DNA from: a virus
Length of the DNA: 24,828 nucleotides
Reading direction: 5' to 3' (one strand)
IMG/VR virus record: IMGVR_UViG_3300048024_000791
Span: 1-24,828 of that record
Shown: positions 10,500 through 19,988 of the stretch, one piece after another
Layout: the number at the start of each line of letters is the position of its first letter
How positions within the stretch are numbered: the first letter of the stretch is position 1
Translations under genes and position numbers: made by a program
Notes under the pieces: model-generated
Databases searched by the model: none
What the model was told of the DNA's origin: nothing
Seen by the model: only the letters and a program-made list of their open reading frames with translations

Positions 10500-11541
10500 C
10501 TTCTTTAGAAATGCCCAAAACCCTAGCTTTCCAGTCAGGCATCGATTCGAGTCTTCCAGCTTCTTCTTTTGCCGCCTCTCTTTGCAATCTCGCGATTTTT
10601 ATCATAACCTCTCGCTCTTCCTCTTCCTGAAATAGTTGGACAAGCGACAACAAACTTGCATTTTGCTGGTGCTTGCTGGATATTCTTTTTGATCGGTCTC
10701 CCTGAAGTTTTTGAATCAATGACTCCATTCTTTTTTCGCACTGATTGTATTCTTCGCTTTTAGTTTTAAGCAATTCTGCTAATCTTACAGTTAAATCCTG
10801 TTGGTCTTCCGCTTCATCGAACATTCTATTTAACTTATTAATTGCGCTTTGAATGTTTTTCAAATGAATGTAATCCATACACACGTTGATGTATAAATTA
10901 ATCTCGTCACTTGTTAAGTCAGGCTTATCCCAGGTAGCCCTAACAAACTCTGCCTCAAATAAGTCTCTATCCGCCTGACTATCGTAAGTGTTGATTACCT
11001 GAATAAATCTAGGTGACGCTAAAAAGCCTCCCAAGGATTCGATGCCCTTTCTCTCGGACATGGTGAGCTTTTCTTCGTTTATACTTGTTTGGGCATAGTC
11101 ATTTATCTTTTTTATTATTTTACTAGAAGCCTTTGGAGGGGAGTATCTTTTATTTATTGCATCCTCAGATGCGGGAGTCTTTATTTCATCATTTTTATCA
11201 ACGTATTCAAATACAGCTTGATATTCTTTTGAAGTATGCGTTACTCGGATTTCCGGGAAAAGCACTGCTGCTGCTTGAGCGCAGGTCATACCATCTGAGA
11301 CAGATTGGTCTACAAAGTCTTTTTGCTCCTGGGTTAATATAATATCATCCTTCGGGTAGATGTGTTTTGTTTCATACTCTATCTCGTTATTCAATAAAAA
11401 TTTCCTAACGGCCCTACCCTGTTTACTTCTTCCGTCAACTTTATCAGAGTCGGGAAAAGCTAACTTGGTTAATTCGGTTAAATCAGAGACTTCATTTGCG
11501 TTAGACCTGATAACGTTTTTCTGTTCGTCGTTTAGCTCCAT
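10489..11541 (-). CDS. Two-repeat coiled-coil protein, possible small terminase / DNA-recognition protein
   Basis: 350 residues, no family recognised. The N-terminal third holds two related units of about 48 residues: one from residue 6 (EQKNVIRS, then LTKLAFPDSD and SKQGRAVRKFL) and one from residue 72 (EQKDFVDQ, then AAAVLFPEIR and SKEYQAVFEYV). Each looks like a small helix-turn-helix-like bundle. A middle helical domain (about 140-240) is followed by a long charged coiled coil (about 235-330) ending in 'RLESMPDWKARVLG'. It lies two genes upstream of the large terminase. N-terminal DNA-binding plus central oligomerising helices is the layout of small terminases, but 350 residues is long for one and no direct motif supports it. 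It overlaps the sigma-like gene upstream by 10 bases. Confidence 0.7.
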   Translation of the reverse strand: MELNDEQKNVIRSNANEVSDLTELTKLAFPDSDKVDGRSKQGRAVRKFLLNNEIEYETKHIYPKDDIILTQEQKDFVDQSVSDGMTCAQAAAVLFPEIRVTHTSKEYQAVFEYVDKNDEIKTPASEDAINKRYSPPKASSKIIKKINDYAQTSINEEKLTMSERKGIESLGGFLASPRFIQVINTYDSQADRDLFEAEFVRATWDKPDLTSDEINLYINVCMDYIHLKNIQSAINKLNRMFDEAEDQQDLTVRLAELLKTKSEEYNQCEKRMESLIQKLQGDRSKRISSKHQQNASLLSLVQLFQEEEEREVMIKIARLQREAAKEEAGRLESMPDWKARVLGISKEDVI

Positions 11542-12275
11542 GGAGGTACAGCCCTAACGGCGATAATGTCTTCTCTTTTCAAAATGTCTTGAGCTTTTTC
11601 TTTAAAAATTTTCTTTAAATTTTTTATCTGCTTATATCCAGCTTTTCTTCCTTTTTCACTAGTTTTATACCCCATTTGTTCGGCAACCTCTTCTTCGTCA
11701 ATATTATCAATAAAAAGCAACTTGTAAACTTGATACTGCTTGCTAGAAAGCTCTTTTTTCATATGCTTGTTTAATTTCTGCTGAGACTCGATTATATTGA
11801 AATTATGATCCTGCATAGCTCCGACCTCGTAAGAATGATTCTCAAGAGCGAGCGCCATTTTTATTCCGTAAGCAGGCTTTTTTGTTCTTTCCCATTTTGC
11901 ATAAAGAGGGCAAGAGGAGTCCTGTAATCCGCTTTTTGTAAAACCACATAAAGAAGCTTCTCCTCCGTCCTTTGTGGCGCATGATTGATTAAAAGGGCAG
12001 TTTAAACATGGTCTGACAAAGTTGCTGTAATTATTTCGCAATATATTTTTCATTTGATTGGTAATAATCTTATTGATCCAAGGCTTCAATGATCTAGATT
12101 GGTCCCATTGATGCCATTTTTTGTGAATGTGAGCCTTTATAATTTGCTCAACATCTTCAAAGTCAAACCAAGCGAGAGAATCAAGGAACCATTTACCCTT
12201 TCTTTTTCTTACTTCTAAGTCGATTTCGTCCGACTTGTCCTCGTATTTAAATTCAGGCTTTTTTTGGTCGTCCAC
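11532..12275 (-). CDS. Sigma-70 family RNA polymerase sigma factor with Cys-rich insertion
   Basis: 247 residues from a GTG at 12275; an in-frame TTG at 12299 is the other start candidate, and there is no ATG before region 2. Region 2 is seen at about 42-85: 'FEDVEQIIKAHIHKKW' and 'LKPWINKIITNQMKNIL', the helix pair that binds core polymerase and the -10 element. Region 4 is at about 175-225: 'ELSSKQYQVYKLLFIDNI' followed by 'EEEVAEQMGY' and a basic recognition helix. Between them lies an unusual insertion with five cysteines (C90, C93, C99, C110, C122), a likely zinc or iron-sulfur site. Size and layout recall T4 gp55-like late sigma factors. It overlaps the zinc-ribbon gene upstream by 23 bases and the next gene by 10, so all three are one unit. 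Confidence 0.8.
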   Translation of the reverse strand: MDDQKKPEFKYEDKSDEIDLEVRKRKGKWFLDSLAWFDFEDVEQIIKAHIHKKWHQWDQSRSLKPWINKIITNQMKNILRNNYSNFVRPCLNCPFNQSCATKDGGEASLCGFTKSGLQDSSCPLYAKWERTKKPAYGIKMALALENHSYEVGAMQDHNFNIIESQQKLNKHMKKELSSKQYQVYKLLFIDNIDEEEVAEQMGYKTSEKGRKAGYKQIKNLKKIFKEKAQDILKREDIIAVRAVPPWS

Positions 12276-12624
12276 GTTTTTTTGGTTTTTTTGGAGCAAC
12301 TTTTTCTGGGTCTAGATCTTCAAGTGGAATTAGATCTTTTAGGTTAAATTTATTTTTATCCTGTTCTACGCTGTACGATAGTTTAGATATTGACGGAACC
12401 TCATATACATCGCTTCCATCTGGGTCATAAGACTCGTCAAGCAACTCAGGAGATCTTCTAACCCTACGAGCGGGATTGGGCGTGAGAGTTTTTTTTGAAA
12501 CGCTTGAGGTTGTTTTTGCTGCAGATAATATACTCAAACCCTGCCCACAGCCACCACAAAATTTTGGAGCCTGGATAGAGTACATGTTCTTGAAGCCACA
12601 GTGAGGACAGTAAGAAAAAGCCAT
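12253..12624 (-). CDS. Zinc-ribbon protein with C-terminal AT-hook
   Basis: 123 residues. The N-terminus has a zinc ribbon with two knuckles, C6-x2-C9 and C23-x2-C26 ('SYCPHCGFKN' and 'KFCGGCGQG'). The middle is a disordered, charged linker with 'RRVRRSPELLDESYDPDGSD'. The last residues 'KKPKKRGRPKKA' contain the R-G-R-P core of an AT-hook, which binds the minor groove of AT-rich DNA. Such zinc ribbons are common in FmdB-like and transcription-related small phage proteins. It is the first gene of the unit with the sigma-like factor, and their genes overlap, so a role as a transcription partner is plausible but unproven. The upstream sequence is AT-rich (GCTATAATATATTATT) without a GTGTA element. 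Confidence 0.8.
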   Translation of the reverse strand: MAFSYCPHCGFKNMYSIQAPKFCGGCGQGLSILSAAKTTSSVSKKTLTPNPARRVRRSPELLDESYDPDGSDVYEVPSISKLSYSVEQDKNKFNLKDLIPLEDLDPEKVAPKKPKKRGRPKKA

Positions 12625-12651: not shown

Positions 12652-13242
12652 TTATATCAAATAACCGCTTATTATTCTACTTTGCTTTCTCGAGAACTCT
12701 TCTGCTTCCTCGCTCCACTTTCTGTTTTCTTTTACATACTCAAAGCAAAGAACTCCCAAGATTTTTCCGTTTAAAGTTTTTACTGGCCGCGCAAAAAAAC
12801 TTTTCACGCCTTTTTGCTCCAGAAAAGACTTGAATCCGATATCATCATTGTACTCTTCTAGATTAGGACACTTGAATGTTTTTTCCTGAGATACTGAATG
12901 CGTAAGTCCGTGAAAATTAGAAGTTCTTATATTTTGAAGGGTCTGACATTCGGAACTTATTCCTTCGCTAACGACCTCATAAGTGCAACTTAATTTTTGC
13001 TGACTTCTTCCGGAAAAATAATGCTCTCCATTATGAAACTCTAAAATATATACTCTATCTGCATCAGCTTCATCGAGAACATAATTTAAGGCAGAAATTA
13101 CATTGCTATGGCAATTAGGGTCGTAAACAAATTGTTTACTTTTCTTTTCATCATATTTTATTTTCAACCACATACCGATAACCGCAGTTGCGGCAGAAAC
13201 TACACCAGTAAGCACGCTTAATATATCTAGACCATTATTCAT
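12652..13242 (-). CDS. Membrane-anchored GAF-domain protein
   Basis: 196 residues. Residues 7-26 form one N-terminal membrane segment, followed by a short basic stretch 'KIKYDEKKSK', so the rest should lie in the cytoplasm. Residues about 45-190 are a GAF-like domain: 'NVISALNYVLDEADADRVYI' (helix then strand), 'EFHNGEHYFSG', a central 'YEVVSEGIS', 'KGVKSFFARPV', and 'GKILGVLCFEYV' followed by a terminal helix. GAF domains bind small ligands, haem or sense redox; cysteines at 44, 86, 99, 125 and 166 are of note. The start overlaps the stop of the lipoprotein gene by ATGA, coupling it to the holin-like cassette. The GAF call is by fold pattern and reasonably sure; ligand and output are unknown, and no catalytic output domain is attached. 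Confidence 0.78.
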   Translation of the reverse strand: MNNGLDILSVLTGVVSAATAVIGMWLKIKYDEKKSKQFVYDPNCHSNVISALNYVLDEADADRVYILEFHNGEHYFSGRSQQKLSCTYEVVSEGISSECQTLQNIRTSNFHGLTHSVSQEKTFKCPNLEEYNDDIGFKSFLEQKGVKSFFARPVKTLNGKILGVLCFEYVKENRKWSEEAEEFSRKQSRIISGYLI

Positions 13243-13466
13243 TTTTTAAAAATTAAAGAAAAGAGCGAAATAAAAAAAACTAAACCTATTACCATTCCAA
13301 ACCATATCCACGGCCCAGTATGATCATAATTCTGAGGATCGCTCACTATAGATAGTACATTCGATTCGTCGCCAGGAGAATCTAATTTAGCAATTTCTTT
13401 TGGTTTCTGTATGATTTTTCTCGAACAAGAGAAGAAAAATAAAATTATCAGCCAGCAACCCCTCAT
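13239..13466 (-). CDS. Short lipoprotein with C-terminal membrane segment (spanin-like)
   Basis: 75 residues. The N-terminus 'MRGCWLIILFFFSCSRK' looks like a lipoprotein signal with the lipidated cysteine at 14 (F-F-S-C, a somewhat weak lipobox). Residues about 15-50 are a polar, Pro/Asp/Ser-rich linker. Residues 52-72, 'GPWIWFGMVIGLVFFISLFS', are a membrane segment followed by Lys-Lys. Outer-membrane lipidation plus an inner-membrane anchor is the layout of unimolecular spanins such as T1 gp11, though the linker of about 36 residues is short for that. A plain inner-membrane protein is the alternative. The gene is coupled by ATGA overlaps to the holin-like gene before it and the GAF gene after it. 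Confidence 0.68.
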   Translation of the reverse strand: MRGCWLIILFFFSCSRKIIQKPKEIAKLDSPGDESNVLSIVSDPQNYDHTGPWIWFGMVIGLVFFISLFSLIFKK

Positions 13467-13897
13467 CGACGCTTACTGGGAATCGCATAAAATCCAACAA
13501 CCATGAAACACAAATCCATAAACGATGCAAGCATCAAGCCTCCTGTCATTTGAACTACTTCCCAGTCTTTTGCTCCGAATATCCAACTAAAAAACCCCCA
13601 CTTTGTGCCTTCCCCTTTAGGGACAATTAAATTGTATGTAATATGAGGATTCATTGCATAATAAATCATCAAGAAACACATGGTAAACGTGATACTCATA
13701 AAAAGTATTCTTCGGCTAACCTTCACAAAAGGATCTTTAGCATTTTCCGACTGACTAGAAATTAAAGCTTCTAGCATTTTTTCGTCTCGCGCGGCTAAAG
13801 CTAGCTGATCTTGCCTCTTTTGCTCTAGCCATGCGTTTATTAGATTGCAGGCCAATTTTATTCCCGCTCCTATAATAGTATTCAATATTGGGCCCAT
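13463..13897 (-). CDS. Holin-like membrane protein
   Basis: 144 residues. An amphipathic N-terminal helix (1-22) is followed by a charged helix 'AWLEQKRQDQLALAARDEKM', a membrane segment at about 64-82, a short loop with 'GEGTKWGFFSWIFG', a second membrane segment at about 118-139, and a basic tail SKRR. This layout resembles the three-helix holin family found in gene transfer agents and many phages (Holin_3TMs-like). It would form lesions in the inner membrane at the end of infection. It leads a coupled three-gene cassette and has a GTGTATAT element 6 bases before its ATG. No endolysin gene is recognised next to it, so the lysis role is inferred. Confidence 0.68.
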   Translation of the reverse strand: MGPILNTIIGAGIKLACNLINAWLEQKRQDQLALAARDEKMLEALISSQSENAKDPFVKVSRRILFMSITFTMCFLMIYYAMNPHITYNLIVPKGEGTKWGFFSWIFGAKDWEVVQMTGGLMLASFMDLCFMVVGFYAIPSKRR

Positions 13898-13955: not shown

Positions 13956-14153
13956 ATGTCACAAAAATCTATCCTGGAAATGCTTAGTAAAAATTTAAAC
14001 TCATACCAGTCTACATGTTGGTTAAAAACTGAAAATGCAAAATTAAATGGATCCACTCCTGCAGAATTGATGATGGAAAATCAAACAGACAAAGTATCAA
14101 GAATATTGCCAGAAGAAATAAAAAGAATAAAAAGTAAAAAAAATACTAATTAG
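13956..14153 (+). CDS. Small protein resembling the MbcA/ParS/Xre toxin-binding domain
   Basis: 65 residues. Residues about 20-50, 'TCWLKTENAKLNGSTPAELM' and onward to 'DKVSRIL', follow the pattern W-L-x-T-x-N-x-x-L-x-G-x-T-P-x-E-L of the C-terminal domain of antitoxins in RES/Xre and MbcT/MbcA systems (PF09722-like). The rest is a short N-terminal helix and a Lys-rich tail; there is no room for the Xre-type DNA-binding domain. It is the only plus-strand gene in this part, divergent from the holin cassette and convergent with the 14150-14761 gene, with which its stop codon overlaps (TTAG). No RES-type toxin is seen nearby. It may act alone as a trans-acting antitoxin or have been recruited for another task. 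Confidence 0.68.
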   Translation: MSQKSILEMLSKNLNSYQSTCWLKTENAKLNGSTPAELMMENQTDKVSRILPEEIKRIKSKKNTN

Positions 14154-17219: not shown

Positions 17220-17520
17220 ATTTTAATTTACTTATAATGTAATTTAAATTGTCGCAAGTTATTTTATCGACCGAAATATCTGCACACTTATCAGTTTTTA
17301 AAGTAAATCCAGATTCTCTCTCAGTGTCTATTATTAGATAGCTTATAAAGTCATGCGCGCCAAACCCTTTGAGCCAGCTCCAATACATACTACGAGTGCC
17401 TGGCGGGCATTCTAGAAGCACATCCTCGAACTTGTATGTTCGAGCATATAATGTAACATCTCGAAAACAAGAAATTTCACTGGGAGGCTCACTCAAGCAG
17501 GACTCGATAATTAATTTCAT
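17218..17520 (-). CDS. Hypothetical protein
   Basis: 100 residues, no recognised family. Five cysteines (8, 18, 38, 79 and 89) are scattered with no clear metal-site spacing. A mix of strands and helices is predicted, with 'RSMYWSWLKGFGAHDFISYL' in the middle. No signal peptide or membrane segment. It overlaps the upstream membrane coiled-coil gene by ATGA, so the two are coupled, and its stop codon lies at the edge of the plus-strand terminator. Confidence 0.65.
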   Translation of the reverse strand: MKLIIESCLSEPPSEISCFRDVTLYARTYKFEDVLLECPPGTRSMYWSWLKGFGAHDFISYLIIDTERESGFTLKTDKCADISVDKITCDNLNYIISKLK

Positions 17521-17750
17521 TTTTCTAATTTTTCGAAGAGTCGAACAACATCATTTCTTCTATCCTCCAAAAGTCTTTGAGTTTGTTCCCATCGTTCTGC
17601 ATCTCTAGCTCCGTTTTTAGCTAAATCAACTTCCATTCTTCTTAGTTTCGATCCTAGTTTTTCGATTTTTAAGCTTTCTCTTTTTAAATAGAAGGCAATA
17701 ATCGACACTAATATGCCAACTCCTATTATCAATATTTCTTGCATTTCCAT
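17517..17750 (-). CDS. Small membrane-anchored coiled-coil protein
   Basis: 77 residues from the ATG at 17750, chosen because the GTGTATTT element then sits 6 bases upstream as at other genes; ATGs at 17756 and 17744 and a TTG at 17768 are also in frame. Residues about 5-22, 'EILIIGVGILVSIIAFYL', are a membrane segment. The rest is a charged coiled coil, 'RESLKIEKLGSKLRRMEVDL' to the C-terminus. It mirrors the plus-strand protein at 16580-16777 in layout. Possible i-spanin-like or membrane scaffold role; unproven. Confidence 0.68.
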   Translation of the reverse strand: MEMQEILIIGVGILVSIIAFYLKRESLKIEKLGSKLRRMEVDLAKNGARDAERWEQTQRLLEDRRNDVVRLFEKLEK

Positions 17751-17756
17751 ATACAT

Positions 17757-17764
17757 AAATACAC
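17757..17764 (-). promoter_or_regulatory. GTGTAWWW upstream element (site 8)
   Basis: GTGTATTT on the minus strand, 6 bases before the ATG at 17750. A 70-base gap without genes separates it from the stop at 17835. Confidence 0.38.
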
Positions 17765-17834
17765 GCAAGACGGGGGAACCCTTAATACGAATTTTCTATA
17801 AATTAGTTTATGTAATTATTCTTAACAAAAAGAA

Positions 17835-18227
17835 TTAATTAGAATTTTGCTGTTTTTGCTTATAAATTTTTCCCCTAATGATTGCGGGTTGACATAGAAA
17901 ATCTCTACATATTCTTGGTCTATCTTTATATATTGAGCAAGACTTGATACCTTTATCTCCATCACCCTTTAATTGCTTGCATTTTAAGCAATGAGAACCA
18001 CGCTTTAGTTTAGACTTGTCTTCGAATACGGCATCATAAAGATCTTGAGCTTCTTTGTTCTTTGGGTCGTAAAAAAATAACTTGCAGCAATAATTCTTCT
18101 TCAAGCATCCTGACCAATTCGAGCTAGTACCATGTTCTTTGATATAAAGGTCGACCTCTCGCTTGGCCCCTTGCAATGAAATCTTTTTAGATGGCGAATA
18201 AAAAAAATATTGATCATCTTTGCTCAT
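17835..18227 (-). CDS. YkgJ-like cysteine-cluster protein
   Basis: 130 residues with eight cysteines (41, 47, 48, 80, 83, 97, 107, 112). The end pattern 'CLKCKQL' then 'CSIYKDRPRICRDFLC' follows the R-P-x-x-C-R-x-F-x-C signature of the YkgJ (CxxCxxCC) zinc/iron-chelating family. These proteins are thought to bind Zn, Fe or an iron-sulfur cluster, and some relatives take part in protein methylation or modification; the exact role is unclear. The start overlaps the stop of the oxygenase gene by ATGA, suggesting the pair acts together. The Lys/Gln-rich tail is probably disordered. Confidence 0.75.
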   Translation of the reverse strand: MSKDDQYFFYSPSKKISLQGAKREVDLYIKEHGTSSNWSGCLKKNYCCKLFFYDPKNKEAQDLYDAVFEDKSKLKRGSHCLKCKQLKGDGDKGIKSCSIYKDRPRICRDFLCQPAIIRGKIYKQKQQNSN

Positions 18228-18967
18228 ACAAAATCTTTAAAAGTATATCGAGAAAAAGAGTCCAGCTCTTTCAAACTCATTGATGTCCTGCAGGAGCTTA
18301 GGGCAGCCGCCATAGAAGGAGCGTCCTCTTTAACCTCGGAGTGCCACTGATTGAATGTTGGTCCAAACGTAACAAAGAATACATTTCTTTCAGTATTTTC
18401 GCTAGTATTGGGCGTACCTTGATGCAACACTGCCGTATCATAACAAAAAACAGAGCCAGCCTTTAATGAAATTTTTTTAATATTTGAATTTGAAAAATAT
18501 TTTCTATAAAAATTATGTTCTCTTTGACTCTGAAAATACAAATCCTCAATACTTTTATTATTTTGATTTCGAAATATTCTCTGGCTTCCTGGAATATAAT
18601 TGAAAGTTCCAGTTGAATAATTTATATCCGAAAGACAAATGCCAACAGTATACCATCTCATCAAATCATTTGGCGCATAATTATCTGCATGAATTGGCTG
18701 TCCCTGCTCTCCAGGCACAGTGGTCATCAAAATAGACTCGCAGATATGATCATGAGTTAAACAGCAGGAAATTTGGTCTTTTATTTGCCTTATTGCCTTT
18801 TTTATAAATACAATAATATCTTGATTCAATTCAATATTCTTCCAGAATCTAGTTCCAAATTTATGGGCACGCGGCTTTTTGGAAACAAGTAAAAGAAAAT
18901 TTTTGATTTCCTCTGGTTTAAAAACTTGCTTCGAGTATATTAATCCCTCATCAAGCAAATCAACCAT
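18224..18967 (-). CDS. Phytanoyl-CoA dioxygenase-like 2OG-Fe(II) oxygenase
   Basis: 247 residues from the ATG at 18967, which overlaps the stop of the fibre gene by 8 bases; a further upstream Met at 19009 lies inside that gene. The PhyH-type double-stranded beta helix shows 'GQPIHADNYAPND' with the H93-x-D95 pair, distal H182 in 'TAVLHQGTPN', and R194 in 'TERNVFFVTFGP', the usual 2-oxoglutarate-binding Arg. 'GTFNYIPGSQR' matches the typical substrate-side strand. All metal ligands are present, so it should hydroxylate a small molecule, lipid, protein or nucleic-acid target. Its place at the end of the fibre operon, coupled to a Cys-cluster protein, suggests virion or host-surface modification, but the substrate is unknown. 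Confidence 0.85.
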   Translation of the reverse strand: MVDLLDEGLIYSKQVFKPEEIKNFLLLVSKKPRAHKFGTRFWKNIELNQDIIVFIKKAIRQIKDQISCCLTHDHICESILMTTVPGEQGQPIHADNYAPNDLMRWYTVGICLSDINYSTGTFNYIPGSQRIFRNQNNKSIEDLYFQSQREHNFYRKYFSNSNIKKISLKAGSVFCYDTAVLHQGTPNTSENTERNVFFVTFGPTFNQWHSEVKEDAPSMAAALSSCRTSMSLKELDSFSRYTFKDFV

Positions 18968-19988
18968 ACACGTCAGCGATATAAATCTGACTATTGGTAG
19001 GCGCTCCAATATCAGTCCATATATTTGTTAAATCTGCATGATTCGTGAACAATTCATCTGCCGTATAACCGCCTAGATCACTTAAGATTGATGCCTCGGA
19101 GTATATGCTTGAATATTGGTTTCCTTTTGCATTGCTATCACTTGTTATCATCAGCCCAAATCCAGCTTGCGGTTCTACCAGGCAAAAATAAAGTCTATCT
19201 ATATTGGAATTATCGACTGCAGACCCAAGAAGTTGGGGCTGATTACCTCCATAGGATGAGTTTATTGAATTGAGACTGACCTTATAGTAATCTGATGGAA
19301 CCCAAGCGCTAGACATCGTCATCTGAAGTATAGCATAAGAGCTAGTATTATTTTTAAATGTCGCAAATGAATACGAATAGTAACTACTTATATCAGATCG
19401 GCCCATGAATGGAAAATTTTTAGGGTCAGAACATATTTGGGTATAGGCAGTGCTAGCGCCTAAACCCGTTGCTTCTGGGCCTTTCGCCCGCATTGTTGCA
19501 ACAATATTTCCTGAGCCACTACCGCTTCCTCCAGCAGATGCAACAACTTTGATATATGGGTAAGTCGTAAAATTAGAGTTGCTTACATTATATGTGGCTC
19601 CAATATTTGGAATGAGCAATCCCTGACTACCTAGTACAACTTGTATTGTGTTGCTAGTAATTAATGCTTGGCTTCCATAATCAGCTCTAGGAGCATCTGT
19701 CTGAGATATTTCATGATTTGATATATCTATAGCATCAGTTCCAGAGTTATCTTTTGCAGCATAAACATTGTAAACTAAATCTGTCGTTCCCAAATTGTGA
19801 TCAAATTGCATTTTAGCTCCGTTCGCAACATCTGTTCCGCTTGCATCTTGATTTATCCATCCAGTGCTAAAATTTCCGCTTGTTCCTGCTACGCTTGCAA
19901 TATCATAAATATTGTTTGCGCCTCGTTTTATGAATTTTTTACCTTTTATAGTAAAACTGTTTTCTCCGTTGTATGATGATAATGACAT
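18960..19988 (-). CDS. Tail-fibre-like protein 3
   Basis: 342 residues, beta-rich and Ser/Asn/Gly-rich. The first about 150 residues match the N-terminus of the 491-residue fibre upstream: 'SFTIKGKKFIKRG', 'YDIAS', 'NFSTGWINQDASGTDVANG', 'FDHNLGTTDLVYNVY'. A linker 'SAGGSGSGSGN' then leads to a different C-terminal domain with 'YTQICSDPKNFPFMGRSDIS' and 'RLYFCLVEPQAGFGLMI'. Modular N-terminus plus variable C-terminus is typical of phage receptor-binding fibres. It follows the previous fibre by 12 bases, and its stop overlaps the oxygenase start. Confidence 0.75.
   Translation of the reverse strand: MSLSSYNGENSFTIKGKKFIKRGANNIYDIASVAGTSGNFSTGWINQDASGTDVANGAKMQFDHNLGTTDLVYNVYAAKDNSGTDAIDISNHEISQTDAPRADYGSQALITSNTIQVVLGSQGLLIPNIGATYNVSNSNFTTYPYIKVVASAGGSGSGSGNIVATMRAKGPEATGLGASTAYTQICSDPKNFPFMGRSDISSYYSYSFATFKNNTSSYAILQMTMSSAWVPSDYYKVSLNSINSSYGGNQPQLLGSAVDNSNIDRLYFCLVEPQAGFGLMITSDSNAKGNQYSSIYSEASILSDLGGYTADELFTNHADLTNIWTDIGAPTNSQIYIADVYG

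Follow-up and report, generated by a model that had tools for sequence, protein, structure and literature searches.

The stretch of DNA analysed here, a 24.8 kb virus fragment referred to below as the window, carries tail-fibre-like, terminase, capsid, ClpA-like and PhoH genes, named by eye and partly by synteny. On its minus strand lies a trio of short genes: a two-segment membrane protein of 144 amino acids, a candidate holin (13463-13897); a short lipoprotein of 75 amino acids (13239-13466); and a protein of 196 amino acids with one N-terminal membrane segment and a predicted cytosolic GAF domain (12652-13242), which we call TM-GAF. The stop of each gene overlaps the start of the next in the four nucleotides ATGA, at 13463-13466 between the membrane protein and the lipoprotein and at 13239-13242 between the lipoprotein and TM-GAF. 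The original prediction had described three minus-strand genes joined by two ATGA overlaps, and both the reading frames and the overlaps lie exactly where it placed them. Downstream on the same strand follow a zinc-ribbon protein (12253-12624) and a sigma-70 region 2-like protein (11532-12299). A scan for promoters and terminators around the trio gave weak consensus matches and nothing more. Divergent from the trio, on the plus strand, is a small ORF (13956-14153) that keeps about 81% identity across 40 loci and weakly resembles the Xre/MbcA/ParS antitoxin C-terminal domain (PF09722, E = 2e-4); small ORFs like it are also found divergent to PhoH-GAF in loci L051, L147, L148 and L206. Further along, 17835-19009 on the minus strand encodes a protein with a sub-threshold match to a CxxCxxCC iron/zinc-binding domain, and its neighbour looks, by eye, like a phytanoyl-CoA-type dioxygenase.

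The TM-GAF protein was assigned by Pfam, PHROG, a structural model, the charge rule and a lysis-cassette HMM. Its GAF domain (PF01590, E = 1.9e-7, 32.1 bits versus a cut-off of 22.4) spans residues 55-183 (12694-13080, minus strand) and bears, from Pfam and family alignments, the signature ADRvyi.EFHNGehY..G...K.SctYE....GI; no output domain was found in the protein besides GAF. The hydrophobic segment at residues 7-25 (13168-13224, minus strand), located by hydropathy and charge count, is followed on its C-terminal side by KIKYDEKKSK, and the count of five K/R after the segment and none before it predicts an N-out/C-in protein with the GAF domain in the cytoplasm. For 20 of the 21 TM-GAF proteins tested, charge bias places the GAF domain in the cytoplasm, though only marginally for the one from Nonlabens. 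The exception is gp232 of Salmonella phage Arash (L006 5776-6432), the only tested member with a predicted N-in, C-out topology, like that of T4 holin T. An AlphaFold2 model built from a 19-row family alignment (mean pLDDT 86) shows a single helix at the N-terminus and a GAF fold after it, and its structural matches in the PDB are GAF domains, mostly of the phytochrome type (best Z 19.8, 145 aligned residues, rmsd 2.3). The expectation of one membrane segment and a GAF domain without an output domain is thus borne out by a Pfam score above cut-off, by the modelled fold and by the predicted cytoplasmic side. A bilin photoreceptor was considered and rejected: the top PDB matches are cyanobacteriochromes, but the Cys-His pair at 44-45 is not kept in relatives, and the likeness is one of fold only. 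Conserved residues of the GAF domain include R63, H70, N71, S85, Y88 and E89.

The trio occurs in the same order at 48 distinct related loci, a recurrence that exceeds chance. The overlap between the two-segment protein and the lipoprotein is ATGA in 47 of the 48, and that between the lipoprotein and TM-GAF is ATGA in 35 and the 8-nucleotide ATGRATAG in 12, one or the other being present in 47. Mean pairwise identity is highest for the two-segment protein (85%), followed by the terminase (82%), the sigma-like protein (80%), TM-GAF (67%) and, far behind, the lipoprotein (35%). Conservation of the triplet in other phages, which the original prediction had proposed as a check, is thus seen in 48 loci, but the GAF and two-segment genes are each found without the other alongside, which is part of what it had named as counting against it. 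TM-GAF has neither the two-segment gene nor the lipoprotein alongside in L051, L053, L056 and L148, where the order is PhoH, TM-GAF, zinc ribbon, sigma-like; the two-segment gene often occurs without a GAF gene alongside, as in L108-L136, and with the lipoprotein alone in L098 and L132. On two contigs of 195-200 kb (G004 and G006) the two-segment gene and the GAF gene are about 87 and 110 kb apart on the linear contigs as drawn, and the GAF loci of these contigs (L206 and L207) have the PhoH/zinc-ribbon/sigma order.

The deep synteny of the marine clade is instead GAF, zinc ribbon, sigma-like, often beside PhoH, and it is more constant than the association with the two-segment gene and lipoprotein: the zinc-ribbon gene lies directly downstream of TM-GAF in most marine-clade loci, with or without the trio, and the sigma-like gene is the second gene downstream. 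The two genes, which together occupy 11532-12624 on the minus strand of the window and are possibly late-transcription genes, trail TM-GAF also in L051, L148, L196, L206 and L207. Among marine-clade loci the trio is not what is conserved as a unit, and its modules are separable, so that adjacency here would not by itself support a claim of lysis. The persistence of the GAF-zinc ribbon-sigma order where the two-segment gene and lipoprotein are absent or distant would suit a non-lysis protein whose partners are the products of those two genes, acting either at the membrane or in the control of late genes, with its adjacency in the trio being incidental. We consider this unlikely, given the overlap coupling of the trio across 48 loci, the presence of a trio on a separate branch of the GAF tree (L140) and the TM-GAFs of other phage groups described below, beside which lysis genes occur and no zinc-ribbon or sigma genes were seen.

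The short lipoprotein of the original prediction is present, but its description was incomplete, as the protein also has a C-terminal membrane segment. Between a lipobox-like site at Cys14 and this segment lies a linker of about 37 residues, with no periplasmic cysteine; the lipobox is atypical in the window copy (FFSC) and better in relatives (SGC, NGC, SSC). The layout resembles that of unimolecular spanins of the T1 gp11 type: an N-terminal lipobox, a C-terminal membrane segment and the lack of a periplasmic cysteine are common to all 58 u-spanins of a published survey (PMC6139136). The linker, however, is short for a spanin, about 37 residues versus a minimum of 62 in combined two-component spanins (PMC6139136). 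Judged by its reading frame, its relatives and the spanin criteria, the product is probably spanin-like, of a small unimolecular kind; that it evolves fast is in keeping with a lysis function. Spanin-like layouts also follow the endolysin in cassettes of the L232 and L239 types. In L030, L037, L047, L132, L137 and L140 an EF-hand-type calcium loop lies within the linker (Pfam EF-hand matches fall just under the cut-off in L047 and L037); the window copy lacks it.

The label 'holin-like' for the 13463-13897 protein has as its sole grounds the size and the two membrane segments. The protein matched none of the holin models of Pfam, PHROG and NCBIfam, nor any of five holin candidates compared by hhalign. 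Assignment as a GTA-type holin was rejected (no PF11351 match, hhalign 0.2%), and a structural model (pLDDT 61.6) was too poor for a structure search. A holin more conserved than the terminase would be unusual. We retain the protein as a candidate holin, on its size and predicted segments. Another holin candidate in the window is encoded at 17517-17768 on the minus strand (83 amino acids, with an N-terminal membrane segment and a sub-threshold Phage_holin_6_1 match, E = 0.039). Eleven large marine-clade contigs gave no match above cut-off to seven holin and endolysin Pfam models (PF11351, PF08291, PF00959, PF01520, PF01510, PF13539 and PF05838); PF00959 gave one sub-threshold match, the PF05838 control was also silent and PF13539 was positive in one control genome only. 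No endolysin was identified within three genes of the window TM-GAF, in the window or its flanks.

Relatives of TM-GAF in other phages provide a second line of evidence. The window protein matches PHROG families 38864 (E = 2.9e-8) and 14038 (E = 1.5e-6), and with its relatives from lysis cassettes included, the families matched are 38864, 14038 and 30125; in the sources consulted all three are labelled as of unknown function, with no name or lysis link attached. The lysis-cassette HMM was built from TM-GAFs of Bacteroidota, Bacilli and Flavobacteria loci only, with no marine sequence included, and it recovers residues 8-183 of the window protein, membrane segment and GAF domain alike, at E = 3.6e-33. 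Cellular GAF proteins from nine loci and holins of the T4/T5 type gave no match to this HMM at E<=10, and a profile-profile comparison of the cassette TM-GAFs with the marine clade gave 99.9% (E = 1.4e-33). These matches show that the window protein belongs to a coherent, uncharacterised phage TM-GAF family of about 200 amino acids, whose signature is roughly ADRvyi..HNG ... K.S..YE....G, with the Bacteroidota group deviating at HNG. A first, wide TM-GAF alignment (A2) was too divergent to serve in the collection scan. Four matches of TM-GAF queries to fecal contigs were rejected; the two that were read (L218 and L219) are larger soluble proteins in seemingly cellular genes and are not TM-GAFs.

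In Bacteroidota gut phages (L005, L220-L241) TM-GAF lies directly, or two genes, before an endolysin of the Amidase_3, GH108 or M15 family, and at many of these loci the endolysin precedes a lipoprotein that ends in a membrane segment, or adjoins DUF6808. An endolysin was found by BLAST within three genes downstream of TM-GAF at 18 of 23 Bacteroidota loci, and a GH108 endolysin was added by HMM in L239. Metagenome-assembled genomes of Bacilli and Gastranaerophilales (L173-L190) and the viral contig L192 show the order tail genes, TM-GAF, small holin or candidate, endolysin; the holin or candidate and the endolysin are both downstream of TM-GAF at 15 of 18 such loci, with the endolysin no more than three genes away, the holins being Hol44-like, r1t-type or unclassified small membrane proteins and the endolysins Amidase_2, GH25 or M23. 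Among flavobacterial phages, P12024S (Nonlabens) has TM-GAF, M15 and an annotated holin in succession, and L138 has TM-GAF, a small TM protein and Amidase_2. Endolysins of six families and holins of several types thus share one constant partner, TM-GAF; the loci are not independent, but with so many unrelated endolysins and holins beside one partner, descent of a shared gene block is hard to invoke. Other TM-GAF lineages (Mel-JY01, Arash, L060, L191) lie in tail or capsid regions without nearby lysis genes. Within the literature searched, no report of GAF proteins in phage lysis cassettes was found.

The earlier suggestion of a GAF protein in a lysis cassette is partly supported: members of the family sit in lysis cassettes of Bacteroidota, Bacilli and flavobacterial phages, but in the marine clade trio adjacency is weak evidence. 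Given these cassette neighbours and the HMM match that leaves out cellular GAF proteins, the family likely acts in lysis, and for the window copy such a role is plausible. A role of TM-GAF and its two-segment neighbour in superinfection exclusion, in antidefence or in the virion is improbable. Their membrane location would be compatible with such roles, and Arash gp232 falls within a block annotated as structural, but that label was applied to every gene in the stretch, and TM-GAF recurs beside endolysins of six families; a PADLOC search for defence and antidefence genes gave no match.

From gene order, family and fold, we infer with somewhat better than even confidence that 12652-13242 encodes a phage TM-GAF of lysis modules, most likely an inner-membrane holin partner that sets lysis timing, and possibly the holin itself where there is no other. 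The GAF domain would pair with itself or bind a ligand or protein, and the resulting state would favour or block holin assembly; in phages with no other holin in the cassette, TM-GAF would perhaps form the hole. A more specific proposal, that in phages from three or more bacterial groups a membrane-anchored GAF protein gates the holin on a cytosolic signal (small molecule, redox state or partner protein), is doubtful at present; if true, lysis would be timed by a general clock that responds to a ligand, something without an earlier description. When to lyse is the chief life-history decision that a lytic phage makes, and T4 T/RI is among the few lysis systems with a known sensory input. Found beside interchangeable holins and endolysins in Bacteroidota, Bacillota and marine phages, TM-GAF is a specific candidate for signal-dependent lysis that can be cloned, and a probable function can be assigned to three PHROG families labelled unknown.

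For the T4 RI/RIII analogy drawn in the original prediction, the nearest precedents are the GAF-fold domains of SpoIISA and, as a likeness of fold alone, of holin T. T4 holin T (PF11031, with antiholin RI) resembles TM-GAF in combining one membrane segment with a regulatory globular domain, which in T serves lysis inhibition (PMC12162936; PMC11413866), and the T4 t gene is also located after tail-fibre genes. In T, however, the globular domain is periplasmic, with N-in/C-out topology in most members, the opposite of TM-GAF, and an N-terminal amphipathic helix is essential (PMC12162936); the window TM-GAF has about six residues before its membrane segment, no such helix, and a C-in topology by the charge rule. 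The window protein did not match PF11031, versus 1.5e-118 for T4 T itself. Foldseek aligned the TM-GAF model with T-type holins of Proteus phiP4-3, Stubb and Serratia PS2 (E about 2e-6 to 6e-6), and one profile comparison of T with TM-GAF covered 133 columns at a score of 33.7, versus at most 21.4 in 150 column-permuted controls, but other profile builds gave a probability of 0.6-4.5%. True homology to T was rejected, as the similarity is not robust across builds and the topology is opposite; a fold-level resemblance is kept. These same matches bear on the reading that makes TM-GAF the holin, as an inverted analogue of T with a GAF domain. TM-GAF holds the first place of the holin, endolysin, spanin order in Bacteroidota phages, and L232-type cassettes consist of TM-GAF, GH108 and a lipoprotein with a C-terminal TM segment, with no other membrane gene adjoining in the stretch read. 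We nevertheless think it rather unlikely, since a small holin or candidate adjoins TM-GAF in the Bacilli and flavobacterial phages, L235 and L237 carry small membrane ORFs just upstream, and the likeness to T is limited in the ways given above.

The closest mechanistic precedent for TM-GAF is SpoIISA, a type II toxin of Bacillus subtilis (PF14171), which shares the membrane anchor and cytosolic GAF-fold domain. The GAF-fold domain of SpoIISA dimerises, holin-like killing has been proposed for the protein, and the small protein SpoIISB docks on that domain and neutralises the toxin (PMC6562991). SpoIISA differs in having three membrane segments versus one in TM-GAF, and in being part of a chromosomal toxin-antitoxin pair. 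One Bacilli TM-GAF gave a sub-threshold match to PF14171 (E = 0.018); the window protein gave none, and no SpoIISB-like antitoxin gene was identified. Taken together, SpoIISA, T and TM-GAF suggest that GAF-fold regulatory domains have joined membrane-killing proteins more than once.
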